IMG/VR virus record: IMGVR_UViG_3300032323_003754
Coordinates: 19,214 to 83,213 of that record
Origin: a virus
Length of the DNA stretch: 64,000 nucleotides
Reading direction: 5' to 3' (one strand)
Positions 2,877 through 57,341 of this stretch are shown here, one piece after another; the first letter of the stretch is position 1, and the number at the start of each line of letters is the position of its first letter. The notes under the pieces were generated by a model. The model saw only the letters and a list, made by a program, of their open reading frames with translations. It was not told the origin of the DNA and did not search any database. The translations under genes were made by a program, and so were the position numbers.

Positions 2877-4955
2877 ATGGCAAGTTTTTTAAACGAAATT
2901 AAGGATAATCTCAGCAGTGTAACTGATCCCAATCAGATACTAAACCGTGGTGTAGATAAGCAAAGAACCACTTTTCTTAAGGGATTAAAATCAACGTCTT
3001 CTGGACAAAAAGAGGATCCAACTTATACCGGATTTAGAATAATGTTTGATATGGGACATAATGGATTAGTAGATCCTGAGACATTTCTTCCAATAAGTCC
3101 TTTATTCTCTAACGGAAGAAGTGGAGAGGGAAATCCTAAAATGATGAAGATGGACGGATCCGTAGATTTTTTCCATCTATCCAGACAAAAAATGTATCCA
3201 TTTCCTAACTATACCGAAAAGATGCACTATATGACTGCTGAAGGATATCTTAGACAAAGAAGAAGCAAAGCAGAGAATGGACTAGGCGGGAATTTAACAG
3301 ATAACACTGGTAGAGTTATAGCCGGAGATAGAAGTCAAATAAATGACAGTTCTATATCACATAGAGCAGACTCTTTAGTTGGATTTAAAAATTTATTAAC
3401 TAGTATTAACGAAAAAAGTCCTTGGTTTATTCAATCCATAGAGGGTCTTGATAAAGTATTAAGTGTTACACCTCCTAGACAAATTGGTGGGGGATCTTCG
3501 TACAGGGAACAAAGATCTGGAATTTTAACTTTTGATTGTATGGATTCCATTGATTTAAGAATTAATGCAATGGCAGAGCTTTATAGAAAAGCAACATACG
3601 ATTATCAAAATCACAGAGAATTACTACCGGCTAACTTAAGAAAGTTTAGAATGTGGATTATAGTAACGGAGATTAGACAGATAGATTTACAGAAAAACCT
3701 AGGAGATGTTTTAAATCCATTTAATATGCCAGGTGTTTCAAGTGCTGTTGAATCAATCCGTAACATAGCAAGCTCTGCTGGTGTATTGAAAGATAAATCT
3801 ACCGAATCAGAAAATCCTAAGAGAGATTTGGAATCCTTTGTAAAATCCTTTGAGAGGATGCAGCCTTATATTATGATTTACCAATTAGATCTTTGCGAAT
3901 TTAATTTTGATGAATCTTATGCGTTTGGAACTCTTTCTAATTCTAACCTTTCTTCCGGATCGCCAGTTAAAAATAGATTTAAAGTTCACGTTGGAGCTGC
4001 TAAAGAATATAAGTTACAATACAATATACTTTCAGATCTAATTAGAAACGAATCTATATTTGCTCCAATATTAATACAGGATAGTTGGAATTTACTTGGA
4101 TCTAAAATTCTAATGAAGAATGCAACTACCGATAACAATACGAATCTTTTTAGAAACCTAGCAAGCAACTTCATTAACAATTCAGTTGCTTCTGTAGTAC
4201 AACAACAGGTTTCTCCTATTGTTACGGGAGCTCTTCTAGGAAATGCCTACGGATTTAGATTATCAGATGCTGTCAGATCCCTTAATTCAGTTCAAGATGC
4301 AGTTAATGGTCTAAGTAACATAAGATCTCCATTTCAGAATTCAACCCCGCAGGCTAACGGTCTTGGCGGACCTAGTGAAAGACAATATCAGGTAGTAAGG
4401 GAGGATGTTTATCCAAATAATGCTAATCCACCAGCAGGGGGGAGTCTTGGAAATATTTTACCTGGTGGGGGAGCTCCTGGAACAGTGGGAGCTAATGATG
4501 TTTATCCGAATAGCCCAGGTAGTGATCTTGGATTACCGTCTAGAATTTATCCAAAATCTAATGATGATGTATACAGAAACGTAGGTGGAGATCTTACTAA
4601 TAGTGATCTTGGTGTACCGGATAGGGTCTATTCAAATCTGCCAAAAGAGGACGTTTATCCAAATAGCCCAGGAAGTGATTTAGGACTTCCAAAAAGAATC
4701 TATGTGACTACTAAGAACGAGGATCTTTATTCAGATTCACCAGGTAAGGATCTTGGTGTACCTGATAGGGTATACAGACAAAGCGATGGTGGAAACATGG
4801 ATCTCTATCCAGATTCTCCAGGAACTAGCTTAGGTCTACCTGATAGATCGTATCCAAATAACAGCGGTGATGATCAATATCCTGACTCTCCAGGAAGTGA
4901 TCTTGGTGTACCGACCAGGAACTATAAAACAATCAACGAAAGAGTGTATAAATAG
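2877..4955 (+). CDS. Tail/baseplate structural protein with C-terminal tandem repeats
   Basis: A 692-residue protein starting 3 bp after the hub gene (TAAAAAATGG context). Residues 1-400 form a globular part with WFIQSIEGLDKVLSVTPPR and a motif where DSIDLRINAMAELYRKATYD leads into LLPANLRKFRMWI. I associate this pattern with tube- or baseplate-tube-interacting proteins of distant T4-like phages, without a certain name. Residues about 400-470 are hydrophobic/helical. From residue 541 the chain is made of six imperfect repeats (separate entry). The gene lies between the hub and the gp5-like spike, which suggests a part at the centre of the baseplate. The function of the repeat tail is unknown. 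Confidence 0.55.
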   Translation: MASFLNEIKDNLSSVTDPNQILNRGVDKQRTTFLKGLKSTSSGQKEDPTYTGFRIMFDMGHNGLVDPETFLPISPLFSNGRSGEGNPKMMKMDGSVDFFHLSRQKMYPFPNYTEKMHYMTAEGYLRQRRSKAENGLGGNLTDNTGRVIAGDRSQINDSSISHRADSLVGFKNLLTSINEKSPWFIQSIEGLDKVLSVTPPRQIGGGSSYREQRSGILTFDCMDSIDLRINAMAELYRKATYDYQNHRELLPANLRKFRMWIIVTEIRQIDLQKNLGDVLNPFNMPGVSSAVESIRNIASSAGVLKDKSTESENPKRDLESFVKSFERMQPYIMIYQLDLCEFNFDESYAFGTLSNSNLSSGSPVKNRFKVHVGAAKEYKLQYNILSDLIRNESIFAPILIQDSWNLLGSKILMKNATTDNNTNLFRNLASNFINNSVASVVQQQVSPIVTGALLGNAYGFRLSDAVRSLNSVQDAVNGLSNIRSPFQNSTPQANGLGGPSERQYQVVREDVYPNNANPPAGGSLGNILPGGGAPGTVGANDVYPNSPGSDLGLPSRIYPKSNDDVYRNVGGDLTNSDLGVPDRVYSNLPKEDVYPNSPGSDLGLPKRIYVTTKNEDLYSDSPGKDLGVPDRVYRQSDGGNMDLYPDSPGTSLGLPDRSYPNNSGDDQYPDSPGSDLGVPTRNYKTINERVYK
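4497..4952 (+). repeat. Six-copy protein-coding tandem repeat, DxYPxSPGSDLGxPxRxY
   Basis: This region codes residues 541-692 of the preceding protein. Six imperfect units of about 22-28 residues share the core D-(V/L/Q)-Y-P-(N/D)-SPGSDLG-(L/V)-P-x-R-x-Y. Spacers vary (PKSND, SNLPKE, VTTKNE, RQSDGGNM, PNNSGD). Copy 2 is the most diverged, with NVGGDLTNSDLG in the middle. The DNA copies differ at many third positions, so the array is old rather than a recent slippage product. It is probably an extended, flexible or strand-forming tail. Confidence 0.85.
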
Positions 4956-4997
4956 GGGTTTTAGAAACAGGGATAAATAAGGTAAAATATTGTTTGT

Positions 4998-5777
4998 ATG
5001 CCTTTAGACAATCTCCAAGAATCCAATATAGAAAGAAGCCAGCATTTCCTTGGTGTAATCGTCGATAATAAAGATCCTGAATTCAGAGCAAGATGTAAAG
5101 TCAGGGTTTTTGGTGTTTTCGATGATATACAAGACCCGGATCTACCTTGGGCTTTTCAAAGATTTGATATTTCTTTCGGAGATAACGGAGGATCTGGTAG
5201 GGTAAGTATACCGAAATTAGGAGCAATTGTTCATGTTCAATTTAATAATGGTAATTATTATGCACCTGAATATAAAGCTGTACAAGAACTTTCAGCAGAT
5301 CTGATAGAAGAACTAAAAAGTTCTTATGAAGGAGCACATTCCTTAATATACGATGGTATAGAAAATCTTAGAATATTTTATACAGTTGCAAAAGGACTAA
5401 CAATAGACTTAAAAGACTCAACCGTTGTTATATCTAATGATAATTCTATAACATTTACCCACGCTGGTCAAACGTGTACCCTTGAATTTAGAGGTGGAAA
5501 AATAACAGAGTTTGCAAATTCTGAAATCGAAAGCACCGCAACTACTAGAATTAAACAAAGTAGTAATGAAGTTTGGGTTGATGGAAAGGTAACTAAACTT
5601 GGACACTCCCCAGTATACTCTGCGGTACTTGCGGAACCTCTCTGGATGTTTTTAAAACAGATGGCTTCTGCAATAGACGCAAAACTTCCTTCTACACCTG
5701 GTGCTATGTCTAGTTTAGCAGAGAGCTATGAACAGCTATCAACATCCGATGTAGTTAAGGTAACAAAGAGCAATTAG
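4998..5777 (+). CDS. Baseplate central spike protein, gp5/VgrG-type OB-fold
   Basis: A 259-residue protein. Residues about 15-90 (FLGVIVDNKDPEFRARCKVR, DLPWAFQRF, PKLGAIVHVQF) match the gp5 N-terminal OB domain: V-D-x-x-DP-x-x-x-x-R-x-x-V-R-V-x-G, a Pro-Trp pair, and the P-x-x-G-x-x-V-x-V-x-F strand. Residues about 115-190 alternate like a beta-prism or beta-helix stem (KGLTIDLKDSTVVISNDNS). The C-terminus is a short helical tail. No lysozyme motif is present, unlike T4 gp5, so this is an enzyme-free spike; peptidoglycan digestion would need another protein. It follows the hub and precedes a large unknown gene. Confidence 0.7.
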   Translation: MPLDNLQESNIERSQHFLGVIVDNKDPEFRARCKVRVFGVFDDIQDPDLPWAFQRFDISFGDNGGSGRVSIPKLGAIVHVQFNNGNYYAPEYKAVQELSADLIEELKSSYEGAHSLIYDGIENLRIFYTVAKGLTIDLKDSTVVISNDNSITFTHAGQTCTLEFRGGKITEFANSEIESTATTRIKQSSNEVWVDGKVTKLGHSPVYSAVLAEPLWMFLKQMASAIDAKLPSTPGAMSSLAESYEQLSTSDVVKVTKSN

Positions 5778-5782
5778 TCTAA

Positions 5783-8700
5783 ATGGAAATAAACCCGGAT
5801 AAACTCCAAGATATAGTAGATCAAATCAAGAGCGGAAAAATAACTCCGCAGGATGCAGCAGGAATGTTGGGTGGGACATCAGACCCTATACCTACTGACG
5901 AAGAGATTATAGCAAACGGTAAAGAATTGGAAAATTCTATAGTTCCTGTTCCTCTGATATTAAGCGATGATGATATTAACGATCTTACGTGTACATATTC
6001 TGGTGAAGAATTAGCTAATAGAATGTTTTGGCTAATACTGGAAAGACAAGGATACCTTGACAGGATATCAGATGTTCCCGATTTTAGAACAAACAGGTCT
6101 TTCGATTCTTTTTTAACAAAAAAAGGATTGGAGATAGAATTAAACAGTGCCAAGGAAATGGTTTCTGATAATCTTGATCTGGATGGTATAGGAATTAAAT
6201 TTAGTGGGTCAAATAGAAAAGTAAGAAATTTCGGGATTGGACCTTTCCGGTTTCAAATTAATATTATAACAAATAAAGGAATACCCCTATTTTTTCATAT
6301 TGCACCTCCTAAATTAAATCTAGGCCAAATAGTAGATAGAATAAAATCAAGAATTACCCCGTCAGAGGGAAAATGCAAACAATCTACTATAGACGAGGAT
6401 TCAATGCTTCAGTCGTTGCAAGAACTTTTAGACCAGGAAGAAGAAAATAGAAATCTTAACAATCTGGATAATATTGTGGACGAAGTATTTTGTGAACCAA
6501 ACATACCAATTAATCCAGAAACTGGGGAACCACTATTCACAGAGAAAGACCTTAAAACATTTATACAAGAAATATGTGAGCCCGAACAGGAAACTCCAGA
6601 AGCACCTGTCATTCCAGAGATAGACATAGAGGATACTACTAAGTGTATAAATGAGACACTTTCACAGGCCAAGGGAATATTTAAAGATGTTAGAAGTAAT
6701 AATGAACTTAAATCTAGAAATGAAAAAGCAGAGAAGGAATTGGAGGAATTATTATATCACTATAGAATAATTCAAAATTTTTACAATACACTCAACTCTT
6801 CGTATAATCAAAAAATAAAAAACAAAAACAAGATAGATGCAGGGACGGTAACCCCATTAATAATAAAAAACAAAAGTTTAAGTTTTGTTAATGCGTTAAG
6901 ATCTTTTTCTGTTAGATTCAGCGGAAGTGATTTTACTACTTCCGGGTATACCGGAATTAATTTTGCTCTTTCGTATCCAACAGGACTTGGTAAATCTATA
7001 GAATACGAAACGGTAAAATCAGATTCCTCTAGTGAGCTATTATCTGACACATACCAAACCATTGACATAACTAAATTACAGTTAGGAATGGAGTTTTCAA
7101 AAAATGGTATACTAGGATCAGGAAATACCTCATTCTTAAAATCCTATAAAAATTTTATTACCTTAAAGGATCAAAATCCAAAGCTTAATAGTGAATTTTT
7201 CTCTTTTGTTAGCGACGTACAAAATACCAATAAATCAAAAGATGAAATAATAAAATCCATAGAAAAGGATCATGGATTTTTGTATTCTAATTTGTTAGAA
7301 TCATCTGCAAGTCCCTGGTTATTCTTTAATTCTACGGAAAGAGGAGATAATGATGCAAGAAAATCTGAGGATCTTAAACCGTCCAGCACAGATAGTGACG
7401 GAAATCCAAACCCAGAGTTTATAAATTTTTGGGGGGATTATAAGATTTCTTGGGACAAAAAATACACAAGTAAACAGAAAGAGATAGATCTCAAAATAGA
7501 GGAGATTAAAAAGATATCTGATGTCTTTGCAGAATCTCTTACTGATCACTATATAGTGTTTGGTAGCGGATTAGGCGACACACAAAAATCTCTAAAAGAA
7601 ACCTCAGATGCTATAGACGGAAGAGTTTTAGAGATAAAAAACCTATTGATGACTATCGGTGAATCTATACAAAAGCTTGACCAACAAAATTCTGGAGATA
7701 CATTATCTTCTAGAGCATCTTCGATAAAGTGTGGAAAAAATGACGATCCTGGGGTTAAAGTAAAATGTCCATCAGACTGTTGTGGACCTGCAGGATCTGG
7801 GTTAAATAAAGGATTAAATCCTAATACATCATACGGATCTGTAGATTGTCCAACTTTTTATACTAAATGTTATTGGAAGGAGTTTTCGAAAAAAGCTAAT
7901 ATAGTAGGATTACTCCCAGTATTAAACGGGGTTCCTCCTATTGAAAACCCAGCTCAATTCGCTCCTAATTTAGGAATGAAATATTGGCCAGTAGGATATC
8001 TACCGCCATCTTTTATTCCTCTACCTCCTCCGTTAGTTAATCCTCTAGACGGATTACCATTCATAAGAATACCAATGCCAATGATATGGACAAAGGTAGA
8101 TCCTATAGTTATACCTTTACCAGTAGGATTAATAGTAATATTCATTCCTTTTATAGGTGGGTTTATGCCTAGCCCTCTAGTATTTTTTTATGATTTCTTA
8201 ACCGGTAATTCTATATTTCTTTTAGGTATGAGAGGTTTTAGATTTATCCCTAGAAAATCTGATCCTGTTATACCAGACCCGTTGGAAAATTACAAAAAGT
8301 TTTTATCTTTTGGTATACCTAATTATCTTTTCCCTTTTAGTAATCTAGGAGGTGATAACGTAGATTCTTCTGGAAGATTACTACAAGAAGTAATTTCTAA
8401 TGTTGAAAAACAACTAACAAATGTACAGAAGAATGTTGATTTTTCTAAAATTCAAAAAGTACAGGATGACATTGCTAAAAAGAAAAAAGATTTAGAAGAT
8501 GAAGCACTTGAACTGAAAAGAAAAAGCGCAATCGAAGGAAAGGAAGCATACAATGAGAAGAAGAAACAATTAGAAGAAATATCTAAAAGTTTTGATTCAC
8601 TGAAAGAATCTTCGATAAAAGATACTCTTAAGGATCATTTAAAAAACTCTATAGATCTTCCTGATGTTACATTTCCTAAAAATTCAAAAAACCTAATAGC

Positions 8701-49874: not shown

Positions 49875-49882
49875 TATATAAA
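49875..49882 (+). promoter_or_regulatory. Candidate late promoter (GGATATATAAA)
   Basis: Exact TATATAAA with preceding GA, 11 bp before the ATG at 49894, directly after uvsW. Same motif as the other candidates. Confidence 0.5.
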
Positions 49883-49893
49883 ATAAAAAAGCG

Positions 49894-50571
49894 ATGAAGC
49901 ACCTTAAGCCATATGAACTTTTAGAAAGCAGCGGCAGAAATCTAAGCAATTTTTCAAGCCAAAGGTTTAAATCTATTACTGGAAATGATTCGGCCCCTGG
50001 ATTTACTGGTTGGATGCACGGCCTTCTAAAAACCATGCAAAACCGCTTTGAAGGAATGGATAATTTTTTCAAGAGCGATATTTATATGAAATCATCAACT
50101 GGTACAATAGACACCGGACTAGGCTGGCTTTTAGGAACAGCTGGATCTCTAGCAACCGGCGTTCTTGCTAAAATATTTGAACCTGGAGATTTTATATCCA
50201 AAAATCAAAATTGGGGATCAGGCAGTAGTGGTGATCCGAGTTTACCAAAATCAGAAGCTGACGTTAAGCCAGAACACCTTAGGTTAATGAATAACAAGTT
50301 TGTTAATAACGATCTACCTAATATTAATAGTGATTCTCAAATGCAGGATTATATAGGTAATTCTTACAAAAAATGGGGGGTTTCTCCTGGTCAAAGTACA
50401 GTTGCCGACGATTTGGTTGCAACTAATGCTAATACCTATTATAATAAAACTAAGGGATATCCTGTTGCTTCTAAACTACCTTCTATGGGTGATATTGGAA
50501 ATGCAGTAAGCTTAGCAGCAAATTTCATTCCAGCAGGCAGAGCAGCCAAGGTAATAAGTAAAATAACATAA
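49894..50571 (+). CDS. Putative internal head protein with CTS-like N-terminus (225 aa)
   Basis: A 225-residue protein. The first 12 residues (MKHLKPYELLES) look like the T4 capsid-targeting sequence of internal proteins (T4 example: MKTYQEFIAEA). They are short and amphipathic and end in L-x-E (L9-L10-E11), the cleavage rule of prohead protease gp21. The rest is Gly/Ser-rich with a moderately hydrophobic part at about 70-95 (GLGWLLGTAGSLATGVLAKI) and another near the C-terminus (VSLAANFIPAGRAAKVI). A late-promoter-like motif lies upstream. Function unknown; a packaged protein delivered with the DNA is inferred. Confidence 0.5.
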   Translation: MKHLKPYELLESSGRNLSNFSSQRFKSITGNDSAPGFTGWMHGLLKTMQNRFEGMDNFFKSDIYMKSSTGTIDTGLGWLLGTAGSLATGVLAKIFEPGDFISKNQNWGSGSSGDPSLPKSEADVKPEHLRLMNNKFVNNDLPNINSDSQMQDYIGNSYKKWGVSPGQSTVADDLVATNANTYYNKTKGYPVASKLPSMGDIGNAVSLAANFIPAGRAAKVISKIT

Positions 50572-50580
50572 AATAAATAA

Positions 50581-50850
50581 ATGAAAAAAGTATCACAAAT
50601 CCAAGAAAACCTTAAGGTTCAGAGTGCACACGCTATCTCTAAAATGGATGAAGCAAATAAGTACCTAAACTTTGCTAAGAAGTATTACAAGAAGCATGGT
50701 GTTTCCGGTCCGTTTGATGAGAAGTTCAAAGGAGATAAAAAGGCTCAAGAAAAATTCATGGAAGAATTAGGAAAGGCCTGGGCAGACTATAAAAAAGAAC
50801 ACAACATCTCAACGGGTGCAGGTAGCAAACCTTGGGACAAGAAAAAATAG
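50581..50850 (+). CDS. Small basic helical protein (89 aa)
   Basis: An 89-residue, Lys-rich, mainly helical protein (MDEANKYLNFAKKYYKKHGV; FMEELGKAWADYKKEHNIST) with a start like MKKVSQIQENL, in which I-Q-E could also satisfy the gp21-type cleavage rule. The aromatic/basic spacing is loosely like small DNA-binding proteins, but I cannot assign a family. It is 9 bp downstream of the putative head protein and probably co-expressed. Confidence 0.5.
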   Translation: MKKVSQIQENLKVQSAHAISKMDEANKYLNFAKKYYKKHGVSGPFDEKFKGDKKAQEKFMEELGKAWADYKKEHNISTGAGSKPWDKKK

Positions 50851-50876
50851 TAGGAATTAAATCCAATACTTATTTT

Positions 50877-51305
50877 ATGAATGATATACTTTTCCCCATC
50901 ATTGAACATTATATAGGAACTAGTGTTTCTGGTATTCGAAGAGATGATGAATTAGTTCTTTTTAAAACAAGTGCTGGCAGGGGAGGAAGAATTGAAAAAA
51001 ATCTATACGGTGATTGGGACCTATTAGTAGGAAATGAAAAGGTGTGCGAGATAGAGGATGTACTTTTTTCAATTTTCTGTGATTACGAGAGCCAACCACC
51101 AATTGATAAATATTATAAAAAACTACTAAAACTAAAATCGATTGGAACATTAAATCAAAGATCTAACATTCTTGTTGATCAATTGATGTTTTCGATCGAA
51201 TTTTTAATTATGAATATGGAGGTTAATTTGGAAGAACCAATTAAGATTGGACCATTCCTAGCTTTCAGTCACAACGGAAACAAACATGTTTTAGGACTAA
51301 ATTAA
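50877..51305 (+). CDS. Unknown protein (142 aa)
   Basis: The start is placed at 50877 (MNDILFPIIEHYIG) because the longer frame from 50832 runs into the previous gene and begins with low-quality sequence. The protein is of mixed alpha/beta type: IEHYIGTSVSGIRRDDELVL, then GRIEKNLYGDWDLLVGNE, a helical part and a C-terminal strand (PFLAFSHNGNKHVLGLN). No motif recognised. It lies 5 bp upstream of the RNA ligase fusion. Confidence 0.5.
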   Translation: MNDILFPIIEHYIGTSVSGIRRDDELVLFKTSAGRGGRIEKNLYGDWDLLVGNEKVCEIEDVLFSIFCDYESQPPIDKYYKKLLKLKSIGTLNQRSNILVDQLMFSIEFLIMNMEVNLEEPIKIGPFLAFSHNGNKHVLGLN

Positions 51306-51310
51306 AAGAT

Positions 51311-53305
51311 ATGGCGGGTATTAAACATTTAAGTGAGATTTATAAAAAACAAGGAAACGATTTTCTTAATGAATTATTTGGAAAGGATCTTACTGTTTCT
51401 GAGAAATTAAATGGTATGAGTTTCTCCTTCGAGAAAAATTTATATGATGGATCACTTTCTTTTTATAAGAGAGACCAGATAAATCCTATTTCTAAAATTG
51501 ATAGGGTTTTAATGAAGTACTATGAATCTCCAATTTCACATGTGCAAAGTTTAGATAATTTAGTATTAAGTGAGATTCCAAACGGCTGGAGATTTGGTAT
51601 GGAATTTTTTATAAATCCTAGTCCCGTATTAGTATCATATCAGAGAATTCCAAAAAATGGATTAGTTCTTACACACATTATAGTTAAGAATGAATTTGGA
51701 GATATTGAAAAAACGATAGTTGAAAAAGAAGAACTTGAGTACTGGGCGAATTTAATAGGAGTTGAAAATCCCCCTATTATATTTCAGGGAAAATTGTCAG
51801 ATGAGCAAAAAGTTGAAATTAACGATTTTATTAATTCACCTAACGATAAACTCAAGGATCAGTACGGAACCAAAAGCTTTGCTAAATTCTTAATTACCTT
51901 ACTGAATAAAGATATTAATAAAACCCATCTTAATAACTCATTAGAAGAGCCTATAGAAGGTGTAGTTTTTAGATTTGGTCCAATAGACGGAACAGGAGAT
52001 TCTTTTACTGCAAAGATCCTTGATCCTATGTTTGAAGATATCACCAAGCAAAATAATGTTAAGAAAGCAAGTTATTTTCCTAGTGACATATACGGTATTA
52101 CCATCCTAGAGGTAATGAATTTCATTCTTGATAAAAATGTAGATAGTTTTTCTTTTGATGGCGATGATCCACAGGACAAATACATTTCTTATATTTCTTC
52201 AGTCTTTAATGCTTTCATTGAGGAGAATGGAGAAAAATATCTAGGATTAGATTTTCAAGAACCAGAATTCCTCAGACAAGAAGGATTTGAGATTAATCTA
52301 GAATTAATTAAGGACGAGAAAACTAAATCTATAATAGAGGAAGAAGAAAGTTATCAATCTCTTTTTAAACTCATACTTTCTGCATTCAGAAAAATAAAGA
52401 AAAGACCGGGTGGATTTTTTACGCAAGGAGCAATTGAACAGTTTAATATACTGGTAAGAGAAATCTCGAATTATTTAAATAATAGTTTATCCGTTGTTGA
52501 ATCGATGATTCCAACTTTTGACCAGTTTAGGAAGGGTAAAAAGACGTTCGTCCCACAAGAGGAAACTGACGACGAGGAAGAAATTGAAGATATAGAGGAT
52601 GAGGTTGAAGAAGCACCAAGAGCAGAAGTTGTAGAAACCCCGGAAGAGGATCAGTCAGAAGATCCGGTTGTGATAGAAGCACCCAAGGAGGGAGAGAATG
52701 AAGAAGATGCTATCCCTGTTGATTTAGACCTAGTAAATCAGATAAAGGATATCCTGGGACAGAACGATCCCATATCCGATCAAACCTTAGTTAATCCAGG
52801 AAAAGAGGTAAACATAGTAATTGGTAAATTCCAGCCATTCAATAATGGTCACTTAAAGCTCATAAAAAAAGCAAATCAGAGTAATGGATTACCTGTAGTA
52901 ATAATGGTCGTTAACGGACCTAAAAACTTCATTAAAGGAGAAATTATGGACAAGATGATGTCGATAATTTCTGGTGAACTACCTGATGTTGTTGATTCCT
53001 ATAAATATATCGATAATGATCTTCTTTCTAGCGCTCTAGATGGATTAGGAACTAAATACAATCCTAAGACACTAACCATTGGTACAAAGAGACTGGATAA
53101 TTATTTATTGCAGGCAAGATCTCTAAAAAAGAGAAAAAAACTAGATAAAGACTTTATTTTGCAAACCGCACCGGAATGGGTTAGCAGCAGTGAAATATTA
53201 AATGATCTGGGTGAGAAAAACTACATCAATTTTAAAAAGAACGTACCAAAGGGGTTAGCATCTATATGGGAAGAATTAACCAGGTGTTACGAATCCTCTA
53301 AATAA
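51311..53305 (+). CDS. RNA ligase domain fused to NMN-adenylyltransferase-like domain
   Basis: A 664-residue protein with two catalytic folds. Residues 1-260 form an Rnl2-type nucleotidyltransferase: motif I SEKLNG with the lysine nucleophile K32 (KxxG), motif III-like RFGMEFFI, motif IV EEPIEGVVFRF (E216) and motif V SFTAKILDP. Residues about 260-420 are helical. About 425-480 is a very acidic linker (TDDEEEIEDIEDEVEEAP). Residues about 498-655 form a nucleotidylyltransferase with IGKFQPFNNGHLKLI (504-518; the first His of HxGH is Asn) and the late signature WVSSSEILNDL in place of the ISST loop. The ligase half should join or repair RNA. The second half resembles NadM/NadR NMN adenylyltransferases, so it may make NAD or another adenylylated product. 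The fusion is unusual. Confidence 0.75.
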   Translation: MAGIKHLSEIYKKQGNDFLNELFGKDLTVSEKLNGMSFSFEKNLYDGSLSFYKRDQINPISKIDRVLMKYYESPISHVQSLDNLVLSEIPNGWRFGMEFFINPSPVLVSYQRIPKNGLVLTHIIVKNEFGDIEKTIVEKEELEYWANLIGVENPPIIFQGKLSDEQKVEINDFINSPNDKLKDQYGTKSFAKFLITLLNKDINKTHLNNSLEEPIEGVVFRFGPIDGTGDSFTAKILDPMFEDITKQNNVKKASYFPSDIYGITILEVMNFILDKNVDSFSFDGDDPQDKYISYISSVFNAFIEENGEKYLGLDFQEPEFLRQEGFEINLELIKDEKTKSIIEEEESYQSLFKLILSAFRKIKKRPGGFFTQGAIEQFNILVREISNYLNNSLSVVESMIPTFDQFRKGKKTFVPQEETDDEEEIEDIEDEVEEAPRAEVVETPEEDQSEDPVVIEAPKEGENEEDAIPVDLDLVNQIKDILGQNDPISDQTLVNPGKEVNIVIGKFQPFNNGHLKLIKKANQSNGLPVVIMVVNGPKNFIKGEIMDKMMSIISGELPDVVDSYKYIDNDLLSSALDGLGTKYNPKTLTIGTKRLDNYLLQARSLKKRKKLDKDFILQTAPEWVSSSEILNDLGEKNYINFKKNVPKGLASIWEELTRCYESSK

Positions 53306-53310
53306 TATTA

Positions 53311-53335
53311 AATCCTGCTAAATGCAGGATTTTTT
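53311..53335 (+). terminator. Rho-independent terminator after the ligase gene
   Basis: Stem AATCCTGC / GCAGGATT with 5-nt loop TAAAT, followed by a T run ending TTTTTG. It lies just after the stop at 53305 and before a new promoter-like region. Confidence 0.85.
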
Positions 53336-53369
53336 GTTTATACATTATTTTTACTCGGGGGTCCAACCT

Positions 53370-53377
53370 TATATTTA
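53370..53377 (+). promoter_or_regulatory. Possible Bacteroidota-type -7 box (TATATTTA)
   Basis: TAnnTTTA, one change from the Bacteroidota -7 consensus TAnnTTTG, placed 24 bp before the ATG at 53402 and behind a terminator. It has no convincing -33 TTG at normal spacing, so it is only tentative. Confidence 0.3.
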
Positions 53378-53401
53378 CAGTGTAAATTAAAAATATAAGT
53401 A

Positions 53402-54187
53402 ATGGCTCAAACAATAGATTCTCCGGGATATTCTAGGGAAGGTGTCACAGAAACCCAAGAAAGAAGTCCAGGAATAGACCAAAATGCCAGGAAAAAAATC
53501 ATCAATTGTAAACTACTTTTGATGACAAAGGCTGCTTTTTTTGGTCAACTCTCGATGAGTTTGGATTTCATAGAAAGAAGGGATCTCCCACATAGAACAA
53601 TGGCAACTGACGGATTTAAGATCTATTATGATCCGGACTTTGTGAACTCGAAACCCGATTATGAAATCAAATGGGTTATCTGCCACGAAATCATGCATTG
53701 TGCATTACACCACTTCTTAAGAAAGCAAGCTAATCCAACAGTTTGGAATGCAGCAGCGGACTATGCTATAAATCAGCTCATAGACGGATCCGGATACAGC
53801 GATCCTACTCAATCACCCTTTGGTGTTATGCCGAGTGGCGGATTGCTAGATAAAAAATACGAGGGATGGTCTGCAGAACAGATCTACCATCATCTAATCG
53901 AAAATAACGTACAACTACCACCCGAAGAAGGATGGAATTATGGAAACGTCGAGCCCCCAGTTTTTGTTGAGGTTATATCAGGCGATGATTTAGATACTGA
54001 TGATTTAGAGGAATGGGGAGAAAAAGCAAGTGTTGGTGACTATGTTACATTACCTGACGGAAAATTTGGGAAGATTGATGCCATAGATGATACCAACGGC
54101 GATGCAACTATATCTCCTCTGACGAAAAAAGAATTAGTAAAGATTATAGAATCACAAACCGGTAGAAAGATTAAAAAAATAATTTAA
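53402..54187 (+). CDS. DUF2201-type putative metallopeptidase
   Basis: A 261-residue protein. Zinc-protease motif at residues 95-99 in WVICHEIMHCALHHF, followed by the family motif NPTVWNAAADYAINQLI (Asp120 as possible third ligand). Upstream lies a helical start and IYYDPDFVN, the usual layout of the DUF2201 N-terminal domain. Residues about 155-180 are linker. Residues about 213-245 (GDYVTLPDGKFGKIDAI) resemble a KOW/SH3-like barrel. In most cellular proteins of this family the metallopeptidase-like domain is fused to a VWA domain. Here it ends and the VWA follows as a separate gene 6 bp later. Probably works with the VWA protein and the MoxR ATPase. Confidence 0.75.
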   Translation: MAQTIDSPGYSREGVTETQERSPGIDQNARKKIINCKLLLMTKAAFFGQLSMSLDFIERRDLPHRTMATDGFKIYYDPDFVNSKPDYEIKWVICHEIMHCALHHFLRKQANPTVWNAAADYAINQLIDGSGYSDPTQSPFGVMPSGGLLDKKYEGWSAEQIYHHLIENNVQLPPEEGWNYGNVEPPVFVEVISGDDLDTDDLEEWGEKASVGDYVTLPDGKFGKIDAIDDTNGDATISPLTKKELVKIIESQTGRKIKKII

Positions 54188-54193
54188 GGTATT

Positions 54194-55129
54194 ATGCTAG
54201 TAAACGTAAAAGAATTAAGAAAAGTAGAGGTTGAGTATGAGCCTGTTGATCCGGATAAAGAAAAGGAAAAAGAGGAAGCGGAGGGAGAAGGACCCGGCGG
54301 AGATTTTCCACAAGGAAAAAAACCTTGGAATGAAAAACAAGATCCTAATGACGAAAACGGATCTGGAAATAAAGGAAAGGGAGCAGTTTCTTTAAAGCCA
54401 AAGATGGTAACAAAAAAACCAACCGATGAGGAGGGTTTAAAGAAATTCTGGAAACAAAAACTGGAAGAAGCTAAAGACAGATCTGCAGGATCAGTTCCTG
54501 GAAATTTACTTCGAGCTATCGAGAGATTACTTGGTGTTAAAATAGATTGGAAGGGTCAGCTTAGAAAATTTGTAATTAGCATGTCTTCTAAATCTCAATA
54601 CTTTCTGCCAAATAGAAGATTCTTAGGAGGCGGGAACGTATTATGGGGAGCTAAGAAAAAGAAAGAAAGCTTCGAGACTCTAGTAGTTATTAGTGATACA
54701 TCAGGATCGGTTTCTGACAAGGAACTTCATCAATTTGTCACCGAGGCTTTGGGTGTAATGGAAAGCTTCAACCCTAAAGAAACGTATTTGATTTGGTGCG
54801 ACACTACGGTGTATGAACCTATAGATATTGTTAAGAAGGGAGAGAAATTTACAGTCAAACATGCACCCGGAAGAGGCGGTACAAGTTTCATTCCTCCTTT
54901 CCAATGGATAGAAAATAATCTTCTAGGTAAAAAGAAACTAGGTCCTGTTTTATTCTTTACTGACGGATACCCTAATACAGGAGAGAACGGAGGATGGCCA
55001 ACAGAGGATATGTTTAAAATAAGAAGCTATTCAAATAAAGTGTTTTGGATTATAATCGGTAATGGATCACCTAACAATGATCCGAATATAAAAATACCGT
55101 TTGGCAAGAGAATAGATCTGGTTATGTAA
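54194..55129 (+). CDS. VWA-domain protein (DUF2201 C-terminal type)
   Basis: A 311-residue protein. Residues 1-80 are very charged and disordered (DKEKEKEEAEGEGPGGDF). Residues about 80-160 are helical with a basic patch. A von Willebrand A-like fold starts at about 163: LVVISDTSGSVSD gives an intact MIDAS D168-x-S170-x-S172. Then come YLIWCDTTVYEP, the second metal-site loop GRGGTSFIPPFQWI (Thr), and VLFFTDGYPNTGE (Asp). It is the partner half of the preceding metallopeptidase-like protein. The stop is followed by a separate promoter-like box and the MoxR gene. Confidence 0.75.
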   Translation: MLVNVKELRKVEVEYEPVDPDKEKEKEEAEGEGPGGDFPQGKKPWNEKQDPNDENGSGNKGKGAVSLKPKMVTKKPTDEEGLKKFWKQKLEEAKDRSAGSVPGNLLRAIERLLGVKIDWKGQLRKFVISMSSKSQYFLPNRRFLGGGNVLWGAKKKKESFETLVVISDTSGSVSDKELHQFVTEALGVMESFNPKETYLIWCDTTVYEPIDIVKKGEKFTVKHAPGRGGTSFIPPFQWIENNLLGKKKLGPVLFFTDGYPNTGENGGWPTEDMFKIRSYSNKVFWIIIGNGSPNNDPNIKIPFGKRIDLVM

Positions 55130-55167
55130 AAAGTGTTGATACAGAAAAATATCTCGCGATTCACCCT

Positions 55168-55175
55168 TACATTTG
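55168..55175 (+). promoter_or_regulatory. Candidate Bacteroidota-type -7 box (TACATTTG)
   Basis: Exact TAnnTTTG, 23 bp before the ATG at 55199. A TTG at 55136-55138 is about 29 bp upstream, longer than the usual spacing, so the -33 part is doubtful. The leader is A-rich. Confidence 0.35.
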
Positions 55176-55198
55176 GAACATCAATTAAAAATTAAAAA

Positions 55199-56410
55199 AT
55201 GGAAATTTTACCTTATCCTTCAACAGACGTCGTAAACATAGACGCTGCAACATTAAAATACGAGGTCACCGCTAGATTTGAAAGTACAATGGAGGGCGGA
55301 TTCAATAAACCTATTTTCATATTTGGAGCACCAGGAATTGGGAAAACCGAAATAGTATCACAGGTGTGTGAAGAACTTAAAATAGATCTATTGACTGTGG
55401 ATTTACAATTTATGGACCCAGCAGATTTTCTGGGAGTACCATCGGTTGTTGAAGTATCCTCTGATGGAAAATATGGAGAAGGTGTAACAAGAACCAACCC
55501 TCCGATTTGGCTTCCTAGAGATAAAAACAGTAGGGGAATTATTTTCTTTGATGAGCTTAATCGAGCTGCAGATCCGGTAATTACTGGCATGATGAATCTG
55601 GCTCAGAGCAGAAGAGTAAATACCTATAATATGCCAGATGGATGGTTAATCATTGCTGCTGGTAATAGACCATCTGACGATAAGCCAGAAGCTGTTAAAG
55701 ATCTGGGAACAGCTCTTGCGGATAGATTTTCTATTTTCAATCTTGTTCCAACAGTAAAGGGATTTATTGATTATGTGCTTCGTTCTGAATCCCCATTAAA
55801 GGGAGCAATGGGTGCTAAACCAAGAGAAGTAGTTTTACCAGAATTGCTAAGCTTTTTGGAATTTTCCGAGGATTACTTCCACACACTTAATCCAAACAAA
55901 CCGGATGTTAAATTTGCTACACCCAGAGGCTGGATAGATGGATCTAAATTTTTATATTCAAGACTAAGGAAGTTAAAGGATCAAGGAAAGGAGGACATCA
56001 GTCCTGACGAAATTCTAAGAATATTTCAAACAGAAGTTGGATATACCCCTGCAAATGCCTTCGTTAAATTCTATAACATAGTACAAAGTATTCCGATTGG
56101 TGATGTAGTTAAAGTTTTTGATGAGCCAAACAAAGCACCTATTCCTAAGAAAACTGGTGGAAGATATGAACCCGATGTAATGTTTGCTACACTGGCAGCT
56201 ATTGTTACAAAATCAGAAAAGCTTAAGCCTTTGAAACCCGAGCAGTTTTCGAATGCGATTGACTATTCGATCAGAATAGATTCTGCTGAATATGCTTCTT
56301 CGTTCGTTAATATGATGATGTCTAAGCATGGCGAATATGTTAAAACTGATAGAAAATACTCTATACACATTAAGAAGTTTAACGAGTACTATCTTAAACC
56401 TTTACAATAG
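55199..56410 (+). CDS. MoxR-type AAA+ ATPase
   Basis: A 403-residue AAA+ protein. Walker A FGAPGIGKT (K49), Walker B GIIFFDELNRAADP (D118-E119), sensor 1 LIIAAGNRPSDD and arginine-containing LGTALADRFSIFNL. This sequence order (GxPGxGKT, FxDExNRA, AxxNPxxx, LDRF) is that of MoxR/RavA-class ATPases, which usually pair with VWA proteins to load metals or remodel partners. The DUF2201 metallopeptidase and VWA genes upstream support one functional module. The C-terminal 100 residues are helical. A terminator follows. Confidence 0.85.
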   Translation: MEILPYPSTDVVNIDAATLKYEVTARFESTMEGGFNKPIFIFGAPGIGKTEIVSQVCEELKIDLLTVDLQFMDPADFLGVPSVVEVSSDGKYGEGVTRTNPPIWLPRDKNSRGIIFFDELNRAADPVITGMMNLAQSRRVNTYNMPDGWLIIAAGNRPSDDKPEAVKDLGTALADRFSIFNLVPTVKGFIDYVLRSESPLKGAMGAKPREVVLPELLSFLEFSEDYFHTLNPNKPDVKFATPRGWIDGSKFLYSRLRKLKDQGKEDISPDEILRIFQTEVGYTPANAFVKFYNIVQSIPIGDVVKVFDEPNKAPIPKKTGGRYEPDVMFATLAAIVTKSEKLKPLKPEQFSNAIDYSIRIDSAEYASSFVNMMMSKHGEYVKTDRKYSIHIKKFNEYYLKPLQ

Positions 56411-56419
56411 CATTTTAAG

Positions 56420-56446
56420 ACCCCAGGTAAATCCTGGGGTTTTTTG
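56420..56446 (+). terminator. Rho-independent terminator after the MoxR gene
   Basis: Stem ACCCCAGG / CCTGGGGT, loop TAAAT, followed by TTTTTG. It has a very strong GC stem in an AT-rich context. Confidence 0.9.
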
Positions 56447-56470
56447 TGGGACTATGTTTTTGTTTTTGAA

Positions 56471-56478
56471 TATATAAA
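56471..56478 (+). promoter_or_regulatory. Candidate late promoter (TATATAAA)
   Basis: Exact TATATAAA, 13 bp before the ATG at 56492 and just after the terminator, which makes promoter function likely. Member of the recurring set. Confidence 0.55.
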
Positions 56479-56491
56479 GAAAAGGAATTAA

Positions 56492-57031
56492 ATGAAATTC
56501 ATTAAAGATTTTAAAAGCTACAAATTAAACGAGGGAGCTGGATACGCCAACGATTATTATGTAGACCAAAAAGTAGAGAAATCACAGTACTACTTTTTTA
56601 AGGTAGGAGAGGGTAAAGATGAAATAGGATTAATAGCCAAAATTGGGAAATTTTCTAGGTCCTCAGTTATATCAGAGACCGAAAGAAGCTATGGAGTTAT
56701 TCACTTAGAGGCTATTACCCCAAATGATATGGACGATTATCTAGTAAATGATAGCGAATACAAATCTAAGGAAGATGAGAAGATTTCTATCCCTCTTGAT
56801 TTACTAAACCAAGCATTTGTTATCATACAGAAAGCACTGGATAATTATTTGGAGAAAAATCCAAAGGTGACAAAATTCTATGACGAAATTTTGGAAAATC
56901 TGGAAATGAGTCCAGAGGATTATACAAGCTTTGTAACACCTAAAATAGAAGAATGGTCCGACGGAAGATGGAGCGTACAATCCGGGGCAACCGAGAGTGT
57001 TTTAATTTATATGAAAACATCCCATGAATAA
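56492..57031 (+). CDS. Putative internal head protein with CTS-like N-terminus (179 aa)
   Basis: A 179-residue protein. MKFIKDFKSYKLNEG is a short basic/aromatic helix ending in L12-N13-E14, matching the gp21-type L/I-x-E cleavage motif of T4 capsid-targeting sequences. The rest is a charged alpha/beta domain (QYYFFKVGEGKDEIGLIAKI; LLNQAFVIIQKALDNYLEKN; EEWSDGRWSVQSGATES). No known fold recognised. A late-promoter-like motif upstream and the next gene, which has a similar N-terminus, support a packaged role. Confidence 0.5.
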   Translation: MKFIKDFKSYKLNEGAGYANDYYVDQKVEKSQYYFFKVGEGKDEIGLIAKIGKFSRSSVISETERSYGVIHLEAITPNDMDDYLVNDSEYKSKEDEKISIPLDLLNQAFVIIQKALDNYLEKNPKVTKFYDEILENLEMSPEDYTSFVTPKIEEWSDGRWSVQSGATESVLIYMKTSHE

Positions 57032-57341
57032 TCTTAAGAAATACGGGGAATTCATCAACGAGTCTTTAACCCCCGTAATGTATATGAGTGTTAAAAACCC
57101 ATTAAAAAATTCCATAGTGAAGTTTTTATACGAAAAAGATAAGGCCACTAGGAAAGAAATATTGGAATTTGCTGCGACACTCGGCGAAAGCGGTCAATCT
57201 GTAGATAGAAGATGGATTTCCAGAAACAAGCAACTAATTAAATGCATAGTTTCTGAGGAGGGACCCAATCATTATGCCCTAACAAAATTGGGAAAAAGAT
57301 TTGCTAAAACCCTAATAGTTAATGAAACTAAAGGGGCATAG
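57024..57341 (+). CDS. Small winged-helix-like protein with CTS-like N-terminus (105 aa)
   Basis: A 105-residue protein whose start overlaps the previous stop by 8 bp. MNNLKKYGEFINES has the same layout as the neighbouring CTS-like starts, with I11-N12-E13. The remainder (IVKFLYEKDKATRKEILEFA, RRWISRNKQLIKCIVSEEGP, HYALTKLGKRFAKTLI) has the helix-turn-helix-wing order of small winged-helix DNA-binding proteins. It could be packaged and act on host or phage DNA at infection, or may simply be a regulator. Confidence 0.5.
   Translation: MNNLKKYGEFINESLTPVMYMSVKNPLKNSIVKFLYEKDKATRKEILEFAATLGESGQSVDRRWISRNKQLIKCIVSEEGPNHYALTKLGKRFAKTLIVNETKGA

Follow-up and report, generated by a model that had tools for sequence, protein, structure and literature searches.

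Putative T4-type capsid-targeting leaders on unrelated proteins of a probable Bacteroidota jumbo phage

Genes and Features of the Locus

The window analyzed here is a 64-kb stretch covering positions 19214-83213 of an 83,213-bp IMG/VR record, and coordinates refer to it unless the record is named. It is AT-rich (35% GC), and Shine-Dalgarno sites are absent from most of its genes. Because the relatives of a 1185-aa window protein are confined to 31 phage records (Prevotella Lak phages, uncultured phages of 462-735 kb, phages of Tenacibaculum, Chryseobacterium and Flavobacterium, and PAU), and because PAU infects a Sphingobacterium (PMC3738902), we infer that the record most likely represents part of the genome of a Bacteroidota jumbo myophage. 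The relatives include LR756500 (462 kb), about 31% identical to the record in the 1185-aa protein, together with the contigs G006 (482 kb), G005 (374 kb) and G003 (219 kb).

An initial annotation had singled out three plus-strand genes of this window, and their reading frames lie where it had placed them, with the starts it had given and with mutually different bodies. The first (49894..50571, 225 aa, start MKHLKPYELLES) follows directly on a UvsW-like helicase; its leader, MKHLKPYELLE (49894..49926, profile p 5e-5), is predicted to be cut before Ser12, and the function of its body is unassigned. The second (56492..57031, 179 aa, start MKFIKDFKSYKLNEG) carries the leader MKFIKDFKSYKLNE (56492..56533), with a predicted cut before Gly15, on an alpha/beta body without a confident fold match. 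The third (57024..57341, 105 aa, start MNNLKKYGEFINES) joins the leader MNNLKKYGEFINE (57024..57062), predicted to be cut before Ser14, to a winged-helix fold of the MarR/ArsR-like kind. All three leaders end in the gp21-type motif [L/I]-x-E, and the strict T4-derived pattern [YF]xEF[ILV]xE is matched in the window by 57024 only.

Pfam and PHROG scans of these window bodies returned nothing convincing. The AlphaFold model of 57024 is a winged helix whose best PDB matches are MarR/ArsR-type regulators (E ~0.01), which agrees with the earlier description of one body as winged-helix-like; we conjecture that a DNA-binding protein entering the host together with the phage DNA might affect early transcription. 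For 56492, the model shows an uncertain alpha/beta fold (model confidence 60), and a fold search with it gave no usable match. The leaders of both proteins are among the least confident regions of their models.

Homologs from other contigs keep the leader while body identity falls to 29-34%. Those of 57024, in five other contigs, retain M(S/D)NLxKYxxFxNES, and in those of 56492 a leader persists where overall identity is only 26-32% (MRKIFTFDRFVNEN; KVLNFNDFIFEAEE). A viral-contig search with 49894 found no relative; homologs were present in contigs fetched for other reasons, with the leaders MRHLQSYELLES and MKYIRSYALYES.

The late-promoter-like element TATATAAA, which had been reported ahead of two of the three genes, indeed lies 11-13 nt upstream of 49894 (49875..49882, plus strand) and of 56492 (56471..56478, plus strand); the third gene, 57024, overlaps the preceding one by 8 nt. 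When counted within 60 nt upstream of a gene, the element precedes 2/5 tagged and 6/72 other genes of the record, which is not significant (p 0.08). The corresponding counts are 8/18 versus 11/209 in G003 (p 1e-5), 4/5 versus 3/62 in G001 (p 2e-4) and 4/5 versus 4/50 in G002 (p 1e-3). It also stands upstream of likely tail genes, which we infer to fit a late promoter.

A possible weak case, MKKVSQIQE/N (the slash marks the predicted cut, here and below), is found at 50581..50850 (plus strand, 89 aa, start MKKVSQIQEN). Its homologs retain IQE[SN], and their starts, MKK(V/I)(S/T)QIQES, are similar to the PAU-type leader MKTLTQLYES. Only the G003 homolog reaches p<1e-3 with a PAU profile, so that this gene, proposed as a weaker fourth example, remains weak. 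Further proteins with the same start, which the initial annotation had suggested looking for, occur in large numbers in relatives and three times in the record beyond the window: an acidic protein at record 3858-4415 (minus strand, MEKKILSFEEFSKQYTEG), a second at record 4731-5423 (minus strand, MKVIKYSQFKLDES) and a third, with a TTG start, at record 5501-6106 (plus strand, MKHIFSYKDLFES).

Two untagged plus-strand genes of the window have tagged counterparts elsewhere. Homologs of a DUF2201_N-like metallopeptidase-domain protein (53402..54187) in G001/G002, G003 and LR756500 bear the leaders MSKLVKWKDYSKIYED, MRKIRNFAEYGILLEN or MKYIKSYENFIFEN, and homologs of a MoxR-type AAA ATPase (55199..56410) have about 103 additional N-terminal residues beginning MARIKKFSDYVNED. 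To judge from these N-termini, the tag is gained or lost on bodies, both proteins being tagged in relatives and bare in the window. They form a trio with a VWA protein (53402-56410) that is flanked by tagged genes, and this trio may be packaged, given that its first and third members are tagged in relatives. The same neighborhood holds a 664-aa protein (51311-53305) whose C-terminal part matches cytidyltransferase and NMN-adenylyltransferase families; it is conserved in LR756500, G005 and G006, with MAGI(K/Q/A) near the start.

Statistical Support for a Shared Leader

To avoid circularity, the N-termini of the record were scored with a profile built from LR756500 alone, with shuffled N-termini as the null. 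The three window genes scored 23.0 bits (56492), 20.4 bits (49894) and 19.1 bits (57024), with p from 2e-5 to 5.5e-5, and the gene at record 3858 was a fourth match at 15.4 bits. In all, 4/77 genes of the record reached at least 14 bits, versus 0.03 expected; across the profiles trained on other phages, the four stand at p of ~5e-5, with ~0.1 expected. A profile trained on G006 recovered the same four genes (p 5e-5 each), and one trained on G005 lent support mainly to 49894. A tblastn search of the phage collection with a 30-residue two-copy leader consensus gave no match, the query being too short for the method.

In the survey of relatives, the genes of each genome were clustered by their N-terminal 15 residues, with a threshold taken from shuffled N-termini. 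Gene calls came from a simple ORF script, and the counts of tagged genes are therefore approximate; Lak genomes were left out because TAG is recoded there. The largest set was that of G006, with 74 tagged proteins of the MKHIKLFEEFLNE type and two minor related clusters (5 and 3 members), followed by LR756500 (38, MKYIKEYEEFLLEA type), PAU (19, MKTISKLYEAKLNEA type), G005 (15) and pT24 (3). By this clustering, no tag cluster was present in PTm1 or MaF61. After removal of the first 20 residues, the bodies fell into 73 homology groups for the 74 proteins of G006, 19 for 19 in PAU, 15 for 15 in G005 and 27 for 38 in LR756500. In LR756500, 12 tagged proteins belong to one body homology group, and at least six (in L019 and L028) match leucine-rich-repeat families.

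These data bear on the possibility that the resemblance is fortuitous, short amphipathic starts ending in E being common, or that diverged paralogs have kept one N-terminus. A loose leader regex, taken alone, gives only a modest excess, a point in favor of chance, and was replaced by the profiles trained on other phages. Those independent profiles, with p near 5e-5 for each gene, sustain the claim that three unrelated N-termini share one leader type; together with the diversity of body families in G006 and the conservation of leaders across species, they refute an origin by chance or paralogy, which we regard as scarcely tenable. Conservation at the DNA level was likewise ruled out as the cause of the shared leader: its conserved residues are encoded by several different codons, and it is therefore the peptide, not the DNA, that is conserved.

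Across the record and its relatives the leader is 9-20 residues long, and in the relatives it ends in [L/I/V]-x-E/[small], the same as the T4 gp21 site. The motif [ILVF]xE[ASGNDE] occurs within residues 5-20 of 64/74 tagged proteins in G006, 18/19 in PAU, 23/38 in LR756500 and 10/15 in G005, versus 9-11% of untagged proteins; from 5% to 40% of the tagged proteins per phage have no clear motif there. This frequency is partly circular, because the residues that define the clusters (2-15) partly cover the site. Mature proteins, as predicted after the cut, often begin with G-[VIFL]-[FWL]..[LI] and a short amphipathic stretch (NE/GVFQKLKDWGSSLF, NE/GIWDLIKSLGSTL, NE/GFFKNLVNRVGSFL), as at record 4731-5423 (minus strand), L019:12212-12634 and L088:13762-14610.

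Protease, Capsid Protein and Cut Sites

The capsid-targeting proposal called for a gp21-like protease in the genome, and one was seen only outside the record. A PF03420 search of the 83-kb record found none, because the head genes lie beyond its left end; an S77 protease is encoded in a contig that overlaps that end, and in other relatives. The terminal 430 bp of this contig (L173) and the opening 430 bp of the record are 94.7% identical. Upstream of this shared stretch, L173 has the gene of a 693-aa S77 protease (Pfam Peptidase_S77, E 2.7e-8, over the cut-off), which adjoins that of a Gp23-family major capsid protein (PF07068, E 2.4e-39). Since the record is without a head module, the link between protease and record rests on this 95% identical overlap and on the relatives.

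Peptidase_S77 was detected in 8/9 named relatives at E<=1, with six over the curated cut-off; the carriers include LR756500, PAU, PTm1, pT24, MA9V-1 and Lak-C1. It also passes the cut-off in three IMG/VR jumbo contigs, G003, G005 and G006, and in MaF61 neither S77 nor a tag cluster was detected. In the alignment, the proteases of the relatives retain the T4 motifs GELNHP (His85) and SSRG (Ser140) as GE[LMV]xHP and S[ST]R.

The gp23-type capsid protein bears a cleavage motif of the leader type in its predicted propeptide, HSLNE/SAGAYN, and the SLNES site recurs in 73/80 major capsid protein loci fetched from relatives; processing itself is inferred. The tail of the L173 protease is a period-14 array, YSEYLAE/NLDKNIS, whose 14 [LIV][AG]E sites almost all follow one another at intervals of 14 residues. 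Fusion of S77 to a long tail is seen in L173:7906-9987, G003, G005, G006 and LR756500; in most of these the tail consists of 14-residue repeats, with a single cleavage-like site per repeat. From its sequence, the fusion looks like a protease-scaffold that would digest itself into 14-mers. Beside the S77 and capsid genes of L173 are tagged proteins beginning MASRIKKFNDWVLNE/D and MKKYSEFITE/N. The T4 controls read MKTYQEFIAE/A for IPII and IPIII and FLTE/A for gp23. The T4 start and cleavage motif cited by the initial annotation are seen in these controls, and the capsid propeptide and scaffold repeats end in [LIV]xE as the leaders do.

In G003, L173 and PAU, tagged genes are located in the head module. 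Many of the 19 in PAU adjoin the S77 gene, and PAU gp270 (NC_019521), which starts MKGLHNLYEAKLNEA, is annotated, on grounds not known to us, as an internal capsid protein. Could the leader be another N-terminal sorting signal, for a phage compartment, a membrane or a host protein, with the LxE ending incidental? Tagged proteins are very numerous, many of them small and in long clusters away from head genes (G006, 457-476 kb), and some leaders lack a clear cut site, all of which would suit such a signal. It would leave unexplained that LxE/[SN] also closes the capsid propeptide and recurs along the fused protease-scaffold, that tagged genes sit among head genes and that T4 leaders of proven function share the core pattern, and we consider it unlikely.

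Cargo Bodies

The tagged bodies of relatives match a broad range of families: ADP-ribosyltransferase (ART-PolyVal), the large polyvalent protein domain LPD11, NUDIX, GNAT, DNA polymerase beta, type IB topoisomerase, HNH and ParB-like nucleases, polynucleotide phosphatase, and CHAP, phosphoribosyltransferase, LRR, MoxR/VWA (MoxR AAA) and DUF2201 domains. ADP-ribosyltransferase is the activity of T4 Alt. Of the PHROG families listed as matches to tagged proteins, none carries a tail or DNA-packaging annotation, and a structural component is named by only one, 'portal protein' (phrog_15528, 2 members).

Some tagged proteins may instead be structural core or scaffold that is cut up in the prohead and not delivered to the host. 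Two head-module proteins of G003 (132644 and 133762), and the acidic one at record 3858-4415, resemble core proteins such as gp67/gp22 in place and composition. Set against this are the enzymes among the other bodies (NUDIX, ADP-ribosyltransferase, nucleases, topoisomerase) and the winged helix of 57024; for a subset of the proteins we regard the structural role as possible, if doubtful.

Interpretation and Significance

We favor the interpretation, with a probability of roughly 80%, that the three window N-termini are T4-type capsid-targeting sequences. It draws on a leader recurring on unrelated bodies, a cleavage-like motif, the protease and capsid site of relatives and a late-promoter-like element, all of them features of sequence; packaging, cleavage, ejection into the host and any effector role are inferred only. 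A leader carried by 15 to ~80 proteins per relative therefore probably marks a large set delivered with the phage DNA. In the proposed mechanism, tagged proteins would be expressed late and their leader would bind the scaffold core of the prohead, while the S77 prohead protease would be produced as a fusion to the scaffold. Cutting after [L/I/V]-x-E, the protease would remove the leader and shred the scaffold at its repeated LAE/N sites. The mature bodies would remain in the head with the DNA and then be ejected, probably to serve as early effectors.

Several findings count against the capsid-targeting interpretation: the record is a fragment without head genes, a clear cut motif is missing from part of the tagged proteins, PTm1 has S77 without a tag cluster by this clustering and pT24 only three tagged proteins, ~80 tagged proteins in one phage far exceed the handful of T4, and two tagged proteins match the PHROG 'portal protein'. 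No virion proteome of these phages or of any relative was found in the searched papers. In a broader form, co-injected proteins would account for up to a tenth of all genes in Bacteroidota jumbo and mega phages. They would share a single exchangeable N-terminal tag, which proteins gain and lose in evolution, and would be matured by a protease joined to a self-digesting scaffold with the cut site written into its 14-residue repeat; we hold the chances of this generalization to be evenly balanced.

Function is known for only a minority of the genes of huge phages, and a readable head-packing tag would assign well over a hundred of the others to a class of proteins delivered with the DNA. This set is where early anti-defense effectors would be expected, as with T4 IPI and IPIII (PMC3012670, PMC9391042). 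The leader would also serve as an existing address tag by which proteins could be directed into Bacteroidota phages.

Comparison with Known Systems

The capsid-targeting sequences of T4 internal proteins were reportedly the subject of work by Mullaney and Black in 1996. In T4, IPI, IPII, IPIII and Alt carry such sequences, which are cut by gp21 (PMC3012670, PMC5694885), and their presence on hypervariable anti-defense internal proteins of T-even phages is established (PMC3012670, PMC9391042, PMC5694885). With T4, the phages examined here share a short leader on unrelated proteins, with the core Y-x-E-F-[IL]-x-E/[ASN], and, in the relatives, an S77 protease alongside a gp23-type capsid protein with a matching site. 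They differ in that the leader is usually 2-3 residues longer (MKxIKxYxEFLxE), that 15 to ~80 proteins are tagged instead of a handful, that AAA/MoxR, LRR and ADP-ribosyltransferase proteins occur among the bodies, and that the protease forms a fusion with a scaffold made of repeats.

phiKZ and SPN3US, which are giant phages too, likewise package many proteins and have a prohead protease (PMC5694885, PMC10052503). Their propeptides, however, mostly have at least 100 residues (one is reported at 20), and many of their ejection proteins are uncut (PMC5694885, PMC10052503); a phiKZ-type propeptide of ~100 residues was not seen among the 9-20-residue leaders described here. The searched papers, which left most subscription journals and preprints uncovered, report neither this short leader for Bacteroidota jumbo phages nor any count approaching 74 tagged proteins per genome. 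The 'internal capsid protein' gp270 of Sphingomonas phage PAU (NC_019521) bears a leader of the same kind and is one of the 19 in that phage. Capsid targeting itself is known; the novelty lies in the scale of tagging and in its use in this Bacteroidota lineage.
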